Shown here one piece after another: positions 59,811-64,000 of a stretch of DNA of 64,000 nt. The translations under genes were made by a program, and so were the position numbers. The notes under the pieces are model-generated. The model searched no databases. It saw only the letters and a list, made by a program, of their open reading frames with translations, and had not been told where the DNA came from. Source of the DNA: Phycisphaerales bacterium (GTDB lineage: Bacteria; Planctomycetota; Phycisphaerae; Phycisphaerales; UBA1924); NCBI GenBank assembly GCA_020847535.1, contig JADLBU010000035.1, forward strand, positions 50,575 to 114,574, written 5' to 3'. Each line of letters opens with the position of its first letter. Within the stretch, counting starts at the first letter, position 1.

Positions 59811-60539
59811 GAGGCCGAAGGCCTCAACGTACATAGCCGGGGGTGGAGCGCAGCGACACCCCCGGAAAGCGCACCTGGGCCTTGCGCCCTGAAGGGGTGC
59901 TCATCGTTTGCCACCGATATGTACACGAGGCTACCCAACAACGCGACGATCGACACTCGTCTTGCCGCACCCGATTGAAACTTGTTTGGTACCTTGCTCG
60001 CATGGCCTCCACCCTCACCAGCATCCTTCTCCACATCACATTCTCCACCAAAGACCGACAACCACTGATCACGGAGCCCATCGAACCCGATCTCTACGCC
60101 TACATCGGCGGCATCTGCCGCCGCATGGATTCTCCGCTACGCGCAATGGGTGGCACGGTTGATCATGTCCATATGCTGGTCAGCCTCGCCAAGACCGCAG
60201 CGCTCTCCGAACTGATGCTCAACATCAAGCGCGATTCATCGAAATGGATGAAGGAACGCATTCCCACATTCGGCTGGCAGGATGGTTACTTTGCGTTCTC
60301 GATCGGGGCATCGGGAGAGAATGGCTTGCGCAGATACATCGCGAGCCAAAGAGACCATCACGCAACCATCGACTACAAGGACGAGATCCGGATGTTTCTC
60401 CGCAAGTACGGCATCGAGTGGGATGAGCGATATGTCTGGGACTAACGACGACCCCTTCAGGGTCGCGGTATCTGCCGCCACGCTCCGTGGGTGTCGCTGC
60501 GCTCCATCCCCGGCTACGAACGATGAGGCCTTCGGCCTC
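59811..60539 (+). mobile_element. REP-associated tyrosine transposase element with inverted REP copies
   Basis: Two 51-bp copies in opposite orientation (59811-59861 and 60489-60539) match at 47 of 51 positions. Each starts with the palindrome GAGGCCGAAGGCCTC, then TAGCCGGGG and GGAGCGCAGCGACACCC. Internal to both is CCCTGAAGGGG. They bracket a single IS200-like transposase gene, the arrangement called RAYT/BIME. The left copy abuts polX (45 bp after its stop) and the right copy abuts the top6B stop (21 bp). Confidence 0.85.
60002..60445 (+). CDS. tnpA: IS200-like (REP-associated) tyrosine transposase
   Basis: A 147-aa HUH-type Y1 transposase. The ATG at 60002 opens the domain (MASTLTSILLHITFSTKDRQPL); the ORF's extra N-terminal residues come from the REP region and are rejected. 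The HUH motif is DHVHMLV, and the catalytic Tyr is in RRYIASQRDHHATIDYKDEIRMFLRKYGIEWDERYVWD. This compact form, with YxxxQxxHH and a short C-terminus, fits IS200/IS605 TnpA. The gene is complete and may be active. It is framed by inverted REP copies, so it is the probable agent spreading them. No tnpB/IscB partner is seen. Confidence 0.92.
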   Translation: MASTLTSILLHITFSTKDRQPLITEPIEPDLYAYIGGICRRMDSPLRAMGGTVDHVHMLVSLAKTAALSELMLNIKRDSSKWMKERIPTFGWQDGYFAFSIGASGENGLRRYIASQRDHHATIDYKDEIRMFLRKYGIEWDERYVWD

Positions 60540-60560: not shown

Positions 60561-63044
60561 TCACCCAAACAACTTCGGCCCATCCTCCACCGGCACCAGC
60601 TTCCCATTCACCAACCGCATCTTCGGCTTAGGCTTTCCGCCCGCCTTGCCCCCCGACTTCGCATCACCCTTGCTCTCCGCCGCCGGCTCCGCCGCCTTCG
60701 CAACCTTCCCCGCGATCAGCTTCGACGGCTTCCCAGCACCCGCCGACTTCATCCCCACGCTCGCCGCCTGCGCCCTGGCCTTCTCGCTCCCCCTCCGAGC
60801 CTCCTGCGCTGCATTTTTCTTCCCGCGAGCCGGACTCTCATCCTCCTCATCCCGCATCGCCGCCACCTTCAGCGCAGCCGACTCCGCCTGCGAAAACTCC
60901 AACTCAGGCGCATCCGCATCCAGATCAATGCCGCTCTTGCCGCGACCACCACGCCCGCTCGCCTTGGCTTTCCGATCCCTGCCTTCACCGATGCCTGATG
61001 CCTGATGCCCGATGCCTTCTCCTCCCCCACCAGTGCCCAATGCCCGATGCCCAGTGCTTTCTGGCATCTGCTCGACAATGATCACCCCATCCTGATCCGC
61101 CGGATCCTCATCCCCATCCCGGATCGCCTTCCCATCCTCATCCAATTGCAGATCCGCGATCGCCGTCTTCTCCTTCGCCTGCGCCAAAAGCGCCTCGTAG
61201 AACTTCTTCCCATCCACCCCCGTGATCGCGCTCGCCGCCTTCGCAATCTCACCGATGTACTTCTGGAACACATCGCGCCGCTCGCTCTCGCGCCGCATCT
61301 TCGCCCGCTTCTTCAGATACGTCCCCAGCTTGCGCCCGCACTCCATCAGCGCCAGCTTCATCTCCTTGCGGATCTCGTCATAGTCCGCGATCGCCTCCTT
61401 GCTCTCGCTCGTGAACGGCACCCACACGCTCGCCATATGGATCATGATCACCAAGGGCCCCACCGGCGCGCTCCCCCGCGGCTGCTGCAGGTCGTAGTTC
61501 CGCCAGTTGGTATCCGCAACCGCCTTGAACGATGAGCACGCCGACTGCTGGAAGAGCAACGGCACCCTGTTCGCAAACCGGATCACCCGGCACGCATCAT
61601 CCGCCGCCAGCTCCCCGCCGAACGCGATCGCCGCCTCGATCTGGAACGGCCGACCGCGATAGATCTCCGCCTCGCGCGAGCTCGCCGCGTAAAACTCCGC
61701 CCGCACACCCTTGAGCATGCCGGCGAGCAGCTGCCGCACCCCGATGGGCGCCAGGCAGTCCGTCGGCGGCGGGGGCAGCCTCGCCTCCTGGAACTCCTTG
61801 AACAGCTTCTCCGCCAGCGGCGGATCGATATCCGAAACCTTCGTCCGGCTCGTGACATCGATCTTGTCGCAGAAGCTCGATGCCGTCTGCGCGGAGATCC
61901 GGCTGAACTGCTCCTGCAGGAAGTTGTAGAGCGTCCCCCCACCCTTGTTCGCCGCCTCAAAGTCCTTGAGCATCTGCAGCAGAATGCCGAGCTCGATCCC
62001 CTTGGGATGCGGCTGAATCTCCTTGGTCTCCGGCGGCAATTCATTCACCCCGCGCGGGAAGATCGTGACCCCGTTGCTCTCCGTCGTCACCGCCGGTTGC
62101 GGCGCAGGTTCAGGAGTCGGCGCGGCAACCACCTCGCCATCCTCACCCTTGGTCGCGATCTCCGCCTTCCTGCTCTTCTTGACCGGCAGAAGTTCTTCCT
62201 CCTCCGCAGCGCTCTCGCGCGAAGGCGGCACGAACACAAACCGCGCGTGCGGATTGGCGATCGCCGTCAGCTCCAAGAACTCATCAACCGACCCCCGACC
62301 CTTCTGGTATCGCCCCTCCAGCTCGATGCTCACGCTCGTCCCCGTCGGGAACGAATCGGCGGCGAGCAGTTGGCCCTCCCGCGCCAGCTCCTTGGTCCCC
62401 GCCGAGAGCCCCGAGATCCGCCGCGGCGGGAAGTCATCCGTCTCGGTGTCCTCGGTCACCTCCGCGCGGTTGGTCTTGGTATTCATCGCCAGCTCGATAT
62501 GGTGAGCCGGCGCTTTGGCCGAAGGCTTGGTGTGAATCACCATCGGCTTGCCCGTGGTGATCAACCCGTACATACCCGCCGCCGAGATGCCGATCCCCTG
62601 CTGCCCGCGCGACATCTTCAAGCGGTGGAACTTCGATCCGTACAGCAATCGCCCGAAGATGTTCTCCACCTGCTTGCGCACGATCCCCGGGCCGTTGTCC
62701 ACGATCGTCACCCGATACCTGGAGCTCTTTGCGGTCGCCGGCCGGTCCGGCTGCAGATCCTCGATCGCCACCACCAGGTCCGGCAATATCCCCGCCTCCT
62801 CGCAGGCATCCAGCGAGTTGTCCACCGCCTCCTTCACCGTCGTGAGCAGCGCCTTGCGCGGGTTGTCGAACCCCAGCAGGTGGCGGTTCTTGGCGAAGAA
62901 CTCGGAAACGGAAATATCCCGCTGCTTCGCCGCCATCGTCTCGGCGGTGGCTCGCGGTGCGGTTCGAGGTATTTTCTTTGTCACGGTGTCGCTGGCAAGA
63001 GAAGTGGCGGATCCGGGTTCGGCAAGCAGCGTGCCCTGGCTCAT
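60561..63044 (-). CDS. top6B: DNA topoisomerase VI subunit B
   Basis: 827 aa. ATPase subunit of a type IIB topoisomerase that passes one duplex through another. The GHKL ATPase fold (about 45-260) has KEAVDNSLDACEEAG, VTIVDNGPGI and SRGQQGIGISAAGMYGL. The helical and transducer domains contain GVRQLLAGMLKGVRAEFYAASSRE and MASVWVPFTSESKEAIADY, which holds the ATP-sensing Lys. The C-terminus beyond about 670 is a low-complexity Ala/Lys/Gly tail with an in-frame copy of a GATGCC-type repeat. The family is mainly archaeal and plant, with sporadic bacterial examples. The A subunit (Spo11-like), usually adjacent, is not in the window. Confidence 0.93.
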   Translation of the reverse strand: MSQGTLLAEPGSATSLASDTVTKKIPRTAPRATAETMAAKQRDISVSEFFAKNRHLLGFDNPRKALLTTVKEAVDNSLDACEEAGILPDLVVAIEDLQPDRPATAKSSRYRVTIVDNGPGIVRKQVENIFGRLLYGSKFHRLKMSRGQQGIGISAAGMYGLITTGKPMVIHTKPSAKAPAHHIELAMNTKTNRAEVTEDTETDDFPPRRISGLSAGTKELAREGQLLAADSFPTGTSVSIELEGRYQKGRGSVDEFLELTAIANPHARFVFVPPSRESAAEEEELLPVKKSRKAEIATKGEDGEVVAAPTPEPAPQPAVTTESNGVTIFPRGVNELPPETKEIQPHPKGIELGILLQMLKDFEAANKGGGTLYNFLQEQFSRISAQTASSFCDKIDVTSRTKVSDIDPPLAEKLFKEFQEARLPPPPTDCLAPIGVRQLLAGMLKGVRAEFYAASSREAEIYRGRPFQIEAAIAFGGELAADDACRVIRFANRVPLLFQQSACSSFKAVADTNWRNYDLQQPRGSAPVGPLVIMIHMASVWVPFTSESKEAIADYDEIRKEMKLALMECGRKLGTYLKKRAKMRRESERRDVFQKYIGEIAKAASAITGVDGKKFYEALLAQAKEKTAIADLQLDEDGKAIRDGDEDPADQDGVIIVEQMPESTGHRALGTGGGGEGIGHQASGIGEGRDRKAKASGRGGRGKSGIDLDADAPELEFSQAESAALKVAAMRDEEDESPARGKKNAAQEARRGSEKARAQAASVGMKSAGAGKPSKLIAGKVAKAAEPAAESKGDAKSGGKAGGKPKPKMRLVNGKLVPVEDGPKLFG
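60989..61057. repeat. GATGCC/AGTGCC short-unit repeat inside the top6B coding region
   Basis: Tandem units GATGCCTGATGCCTGATGCC and, after a spacer, AGTGCCCAATGCCCGATGCC. On the minus frame they translate to GHRALGTG and GIGHQASGIGEG. They sit in the disordered C-terminal linker and keep the frame. The unit looks like an intergenic repeat that has entered a coding region. Confidence 0.7.
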
Positions 63045-63206: not shown

Positions 63207-63756
63207 CTACGGCTTGGTCAGCGCATCCATCGGCTCTGCCTCGCCCAGCGTGCGCGAAACCCACGAGTTGGGGTTGTTGATGTGGTAGAGTCGCCAGGTG
63301 TTGAAGAGCAGGGAGTCCGCAGCGCCGACGTAGTTGTCGCCGTTCAGATCCCCATGCACCCAGTTGCATCCGGACTGGCCTTGATAGTCAGCGTAGGCGG
63401 CGTTGAAATCGGATTGATCAGTCGAGTTGACCGCGCCATCCCCGTTGAAATCTGCGCGGTTGGCGAGCGTGCCGAAGTCGTAGACCCGCTTCATGAACTC
63501 GATCAGGTCCACGGCGGTGGAGGATGGCGGGTTCGCGCTGATGCTGCCGACGCCCTGGCAACCCAGAACGAACCCGCGCTGGGTCCAGGCGAGCACGTCG
63601 GCCATGTGATCGATTTGGAAGTAGATGGTGTCCGAGTGCTCTACCACCACCATAAGTTCCGTCTTGTCGGCCTCCGACGACACATCCCAGTCTTTGTTGA
63701 TGTCGCAATTCCGCATGTAATCTCGAAAGGCGATTGCAGGAGCGTGACGCACTCGA
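63207..63756 (-). pseudogene. Dockerin-type EF-hand secreted protein, 5' part removed by an IS3-family insertion
   Basis: About 180 codons remain. The frame ends with two EF-hand/dockerin-like units (ADFNGDGAVNSTDQSDFNAAYADY and GDLNGDNYVGAADSLLFNTW) and a polar tail. Upstream is a segment with VVEHSDTIYFQIDHMADVLAWTQRGFVLGCQGV and one more partial calcium loop (CDINKDWDV). The ORF's apparent start at 63794 lies inside the IS end; the native sequence begins at 63756, directly at the TGACCTGACCC terminus. No signal peptide remains. The rest of the gene should lie beyond the IS, outside the window, unless lost. Confidence 0.75.
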
Positions 63757-64000
63757 TGACCTGACCCATTTTCCGTTGACCGACTTCTATCCAATGTTAC
63801 GTTCCTCGAACTGCTGGGGGCTGAGGTATCCGAGAGCGGCGTGGAGCCGCTGCCGGTTGTAGAACATCTCGATGTACTCGAAGATCGCGGCTCGGGCCTG
63901 GGCCTTGGTGGTGAAATGCTCGTGGTGGACCATCTCGGTCTTGAGCTTGCCCCAGAACGACTCGACGACGGCGTTGTCGTAGCAATCGCCGGTGCGGCTC
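63757..64000 (-). mobile_element. IS3-family insertion sequence, one end (continues beyond window)
   Basis: Begins with a probable terminal inverted repeat TGACCTGACCC at 63757. Thirty bases inside is the stop of an IS3-type orfB. The element runs off the window edge, so the other terminus and the target duplication cannot be seen. Confidence 0.8.
63787..64000 (-). CDS. IS3-family transposase OrfB, C-terminal part
   Basis: DDE integrase-type transposase, cut by the window edge: 71 codons to a TAG. The frame, not listed in the ORF track because it has no start codon here, reads [20 protein letters not shown] with the catalytic Glu, then [40 protein letters not shown] and PQQFEE. The YNRxRLHxALGY block is the hallmark of IS3-family OrfB. 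The listed ORF 63797-63985 is its out-of-frame shadow. Confidence 0.93.

Follow-up and report, generated by a model that had tools for sequence, protein, structure and literature searches.

The window, by which we mean the whole stretch of 64,000 nucleotides that was analysed, comes from a Phycisphaerales planctomycete and carries the gene for the B subunit of DNA topoisomerase VI (top6B). A preliminary description, made from the letters of the window, pointed out that no A-subunit gene accompanies it and proposed that either the A gene has moved or the B subunit works on its own or with a different partner. The question is therefore whether this bacterium has an orphan B subunit or a complete enzyme whose genes lie apart. 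We are confident that the latter is correct: top6B encodes the B subunit of an ordinary topoisomerase VI, an intact Top6A is encoded on another contig of the same genome (C104), and the two genes were separated in or before the genus.

Identity and surroundings of top6B

The top6B reading frame is a real ORF that encodes a full-length protein, in which the GHKL ATPase, H2TH and transducer domains are all present (Table 1). The protein matches the Topo VI B transducer domain of Pfam (E 3e-56) as well as HATPase_c, scores 591.6 bits against the NCBIfam equivalog PRK04184 (cut-off 274), and aligns to the solved structures of the B subunits of Methanosarcina mazei (2q2e chain B, E 7.5e-124) and Saccharolobus shibatae (2zbk_B, E 1.7e-71). 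The original recognition of a topoisomerase VI B subunit with ATPase and transducer motifs is thus upheld. Across 67 genomes, the residues of the ATPase motifs (among them KEAVDN, DNGPGI, and RGQQGIG) show no variation except a single V/I exchange, and the transducer residue Lys549 shows none at all. A Spo11-type or B-like meiotic complex, in which the B-like subunit lacks H2TH, was considered and does not fit, as the H2TH region here aligns to both 2q2e_B and 2zbk_B. An anti-phage defence nuclease related to topoisomerase VI was likewise considered and rejected, as neither subunit gave a PADLOC match to a known defence family. An AlphaFold model of Top6B has a mean pLDDT of only 53, with low values in the transducer domain too; it was considered poor and was not used to judge disorder of the tail.

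Table 1. Features of top6B and its neighbourhood (positions in the window)
Feature	Position	Strand	Remarks
top6B, DNA topoisomerase VI subunit B	60561..63044	-	827 aa
GHKL (Bergerat) ATPase domain	62226..62945	-	residues about 34-273; boundaries from alignment to 2q2e
ATPase motifs			KEAVDNSLDACE (71-82), VDNGPGI (115-121), SRGQQGIGISAA (145-156)
H2TH region	61770..62066	-	residues about 327-425; alignment to 2q2e_B and 2zbk_B
Transducer domain	61281..61769	-	residues 426-588; Pfam PF09239
TSESKEAIAD motif			residues 545-554, including Lys549, inside the transducer domain
C-terminal low-complexity tail	60564..61127	-	residues about 640-827; ends ...RLVNGKLVPVEDGPKLFG
IS200/IS605-like (Y1) transposase ORF	59843..60445	+	downstream of top6B
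Left arm of 56-nt inverted repeat	59811..59866	+	frames the Y1 transposase; arms 91% complementary
Right arm of 56-nt inverted repeat	60484..60539	+	frames the Y1 transposase
Multi-copy IS3-family element (part)	63757..64000	.	rve domain read on the - strand

The archaeal enzymes (M. mazei, 2Q2E; S. shibatae, 2ZBK) and the one encoded here have in common the two subunits, the order of the domains, and the catalytic residues. In contrast to archaeal topoisomerase VI, however, (i) the subunit genes of this genome are not adjacent; (ii) its Top6B carries an insert between the ATPase domain and the H2TH region (about residues 279-320); and (iii) its Top6B ends in a long low-complexity tail, whereas that of M. 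mazei has an Ig-like domain. Topo VIII and Mini-A represent other type IIB systems. Unlike these, both subunits of the present genome are full-length topoisomerase VI subunits according to curated models.

Downstream, an IS200/REP-type Y1 element (59811-60539) is inserted between top6B and polX, which are convergent (top6B on the minus and polX on the plus strand), and the order first described, a transposase followed by polX on the other strand, is accordingly correct. This IS200-like element was not found beside top6B in the genus mates G294 and G295, and it is rejected as the cause of the split because the two genes are split in both genus mates without it. Upstream of top6B, 956 bp are visible before contig C35 breaks off; the right end of the window is the end of this contig and falls inside a copy of the IS3 element. 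The upstream region also holds a dockerin type I repeat ORF (63207-63794, minus strand).

The A subunit and its separation from top6B

A search of the whole genome with the Top6A/Spo11 N-terminal domain returned exactly one match, on contig C104. This gene, top6A, is an intact ORF of 413 aa (C104:1098-2339) with all three Top6A/Spo11 Pfam domains; its product scores 522.7 bits against the NCBIfam equivalog PRK04342 and aligns to the S. shibatae Top6A (2zbk chain A) with an E-value of 7.4e-78. Homology to Spo11/Top6A identifies Tyr141 (LRGVFYK) as the catalytic tyrosine and Glu241, Asp293, and Asp295 as the acidic residues of the Toprim domain; all four are invariant across the 67 genomes. With Top6B as the query, its own genome yielded no second Top6B, just two weak matches of ~30 residues to the tail. 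The assembly thus contains one A and one B gene, in a draft of 134 contigs (91% complete) in whose gaps a second top6A or a ParC gene could sit.

Since the genome-wide search places the A gene on C104 only, there is no top6A anywhere on C35, and the observation that none stands beside top6B holds within the 956 bp seen on the upstream side. At the level of the genome, on the other hand, the B subunit is not without its A subunit. Of the options first put forward, a moved A gene was the right one, although it is more exact to say that the two genes have become separated. Neither a top6A just beyond the IS element nor a standard adjacent pair elsewhere was found, yet the missing partner is present.

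The two subunits also share a history. Pairwise distances among the 67 genomes are correlated between A and B (Mantel r 0.715, a value reached in 0 of 2000 permutations), and for Top6A as for Top6B the nearest relatives come from one and the same pair of genus mates, G294 and G295. Each of the three sampled members of the genus has a TPR/iron-trafficking-domain gene immediately upstream of top6A.

The frequency of such separation was examined in 294 Planctomycetota genomes by means of profile hits for the Top6B transducer domain and for Top6A above the cut-off. The transducer domain was detected in 136 genomes, 133 of which also had Top6A. In 111 of these 133 genomes the two genes are no more than 3 kb apart and share a strand without exception; non-adjacency is nevertheless not unusual in the phylum (22/133). 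In six of these genomes the genes are further apart on one contig, at distances of 3.5 kb to 1.27 Mb, and in the other 16 they are on different contigs, although broken assemblies perhaps account for some of these cases. Three genomes that consist of a single contig have the genes 482 kb (G127), 714 kb (G167), and 1.27 Mb (G287) apart. Among closer relatives, about 15 of 53 two-gene genomes, counted by eye from two tables, have them on different contigs, at least about 5 kb apart, or inverted. The genome studied here has its subunit genes on different contigs, adjacency being usual for topoisomerase VI, not defining. For gyrase, also a two-subunit topoisomerase, a split operon has been described in the Thermotogales, among other lineages (PMC9348778). 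The split arrangement is recurrent, and the finding is essentially ordinary.

A Top6B gene is also present in G228 (30 contigs, 95% complete; L018, L252, G228:C13), in which no Top6A was detectable anywhere, even with a same-family Top6A as the query. If that genome is complete, its B subunit is more likely to be a true orphan than the one in the window.

In the relatives, the gene order is mostly top6B followed by an adjacent top6A. In G295, top6A and top6B are on one contig and one strand, 30 kb apart, and in G294 they are on two contigs with longer flanks. As both genus mates are split, the separation predates the species from which the window comes. Conserved synteny around the pair was also sought in order to date the split; little is conserved outside the pair, so that the informative features are just the link between the TPR gene and top6A and, when different genera are compared, a beta-lactamase-family gene in the vicinity of top6A.

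It could be argued that the two genes are really close neighbours and that repeats at the contig ends have broken the assembly between them, given that the right end of C35 is 956 bp away from top6B, that the left end of C104 is 1.1 kb away from top6A, and that both of these ends are in multi-copy mobile DNA. The left end of C104, however, has no match to C35, which, by the usual criterion of overlapping contig ends, means that the two do not adjoin directly. Such a junction would also imply a divergent order, unlike the B-then-A order of the relatives, and the arrangements in G295 and G294 (30 kb apart on one contig; separate contigs with longer flanks) speak against it as well. An assembly artefact is thus unlikely. 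C104 also has a palindromic element of ~97 bp (L001:119-217) with inverted ends AGAGACTGTTTCAGAAC...GTTCTGAAACAGTCTCT, a MITE-like repeat that occurs genome-wide in some 40 copies of similar sequence (identity about 88-100%).

It is very improbable that C104, with its top6A, was binned in error from another planctomycete. Binning errors do occur, and this is a draft genome of many contigs; against this, the GC content of C104 matches that of the window (65.0% vs. 65.2%), tetranucleotide distances between the two are close to those within the window, the far end of C104 reaches into the IS that C35 also carries, and the estimated contamination is low (0.5%). The closest relatives shared by top6A and top6B (G294 and G295), and the TPR gene conserved beside top6A in the genus, point the same way. 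Hardly any weight is left for a B subunit that, for want of an A subunit, works by itself or with a non-canonical partner: top6A is absent from the contig of top6B, but the genome does contain this gene, in one intact copy that encodes every catalytic residue, co-diverges with top6B, and has a neighbourhood conserved across the genus, leaving this part of the preliminary description unsupported.

For the two-contig topoisomerase VI preferred here, the separation would be the product of an ordinary rearrangement in or before the genus. Top6A and Top6B, expressed separately, most likely still assemble into an ordinary A2B2 type IIB topoisomerase whose two subunits happen to be encoded apart. A topoisomerase VI complex of this kind would be expected to pass double strands in an ATP-dependent manner and to make breaks with a 2-nt stagger. 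The B subunit would bind ATP and capture the transported duplex, and the A subunit would cleave the gate duplex via Tyr141 with a Toprim-bound metal.

Type IIA enzymes and the probable role of topoisomerase VI

The genome encodes one type IIA A subunit, which has a GyrA-box-like sequence (QGRGGKG) and indicates that gyrase is present; ParC was not found in the draft assembly (91% complete). Among 21 other sampled genomes of the same class, the 16 with topoisomerase VI each have a single type IIA A subunit, and of those without it four have two and one (G172) has one. G172 (98% complete), a family-mate from a genus with topoisomerase VI, lacks both this enzyme and any further type IIA A subunit and has gyrase alone. 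Across the phylum, a single type IIA A subunit was counted in 115 genomes with topoisomerase VI and two or more in 17; for the genomes without it, the corresponding numbers are 71 and 84 (Fisher p 8e-14, for genomes that are not independent of each other and with second type IIA matches that are not necessarily ParC). Topoisomerase VI and a second type IIA enzyme show a strong tendency not to occur together, but with 17 exceptions this anti-association is not exclusive.

These results are in line with a published description of planctomycete topoisomerase VI alongside gyrase and without topoisomerase IV, whose authors argue for its ability to act as the decatenase (Allen and Maxwell, 2024; PMC11302465). 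The Planctomycetota treated there (Pirellula, Anaerohalosphaera, Sedimentisphaera, and others) likewise have gyrase and no topoisomerase IV; what sets the present genome apart from them is that its subunit genes are separated and that its Top6B has the tail with the tip conserved in Phycisphaerales. The main text of that paper does not name Phycisphaerales, and within the collection of papers searched none was found that contains both Phycisphaer- and topoisomerase VI. With gyrase present and ParC not found, decatenation, which is elsewhere done by topoisomerase IV, is most likely the work of topoisomerase VI in this bacterium, and the enzyme probably acts as a decatenase in place of topoisomerase IV.

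The C-terminal tail of Top6B

Top6B of the window extends about 190 residues beyond the shared core. Such tails in Phycisphaerales have a high content of Ala, Lys, Pro, and Arg and are variable in sequence, but their tip is conserved. The dipeptide LF is the exact C-terminus in 44 of 67 Phycisphaerales Top6B proteins and lies no more than 10 residues from the end in 64 of them, usually in the form (D/E)xPxLF. From the composition of the tail, LF is expected at a fixed position with a frequency of about 0.0008, a figure that is no p-value, since the sequences are related. In contrast, Top6B from the sampled planctomycetes of other orders and classes lacks the LF tip and ends near the core or has an unrelated end.

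In a few order-mates, Top6B carries QxxLF, which is the pattern of sliding-clamp-binding motifs. The single-stranded DNA-binding protein (SSB) of the genome ends in EDDIPF, similar in style to the Top6B tip. A putative docking function for the tip is a guess. It is conceivable, though we hold it rather doubtful, that the topoisomerase VI of Phycisphaerales, in replacing topoisomerase IV, is steered to a hub of DNA metabolism by a docking peptide at the tip of a long, flexible Top6B tail.

These data remove a false orphan, as a complete topoisomerase VI is present in the genome, and they indicate that, in planctomycetes, the presence of this enzyme is poorly judged by whether its genes are adjacent. 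The pattern across the phylum (about 290 genomes) supports the idea that topoisomerase VI can substitute for topoisomerase IV, and the conserved tip of Top6B offers a specific, testable starting point for understanding the possible recruitment of such an enzyme.
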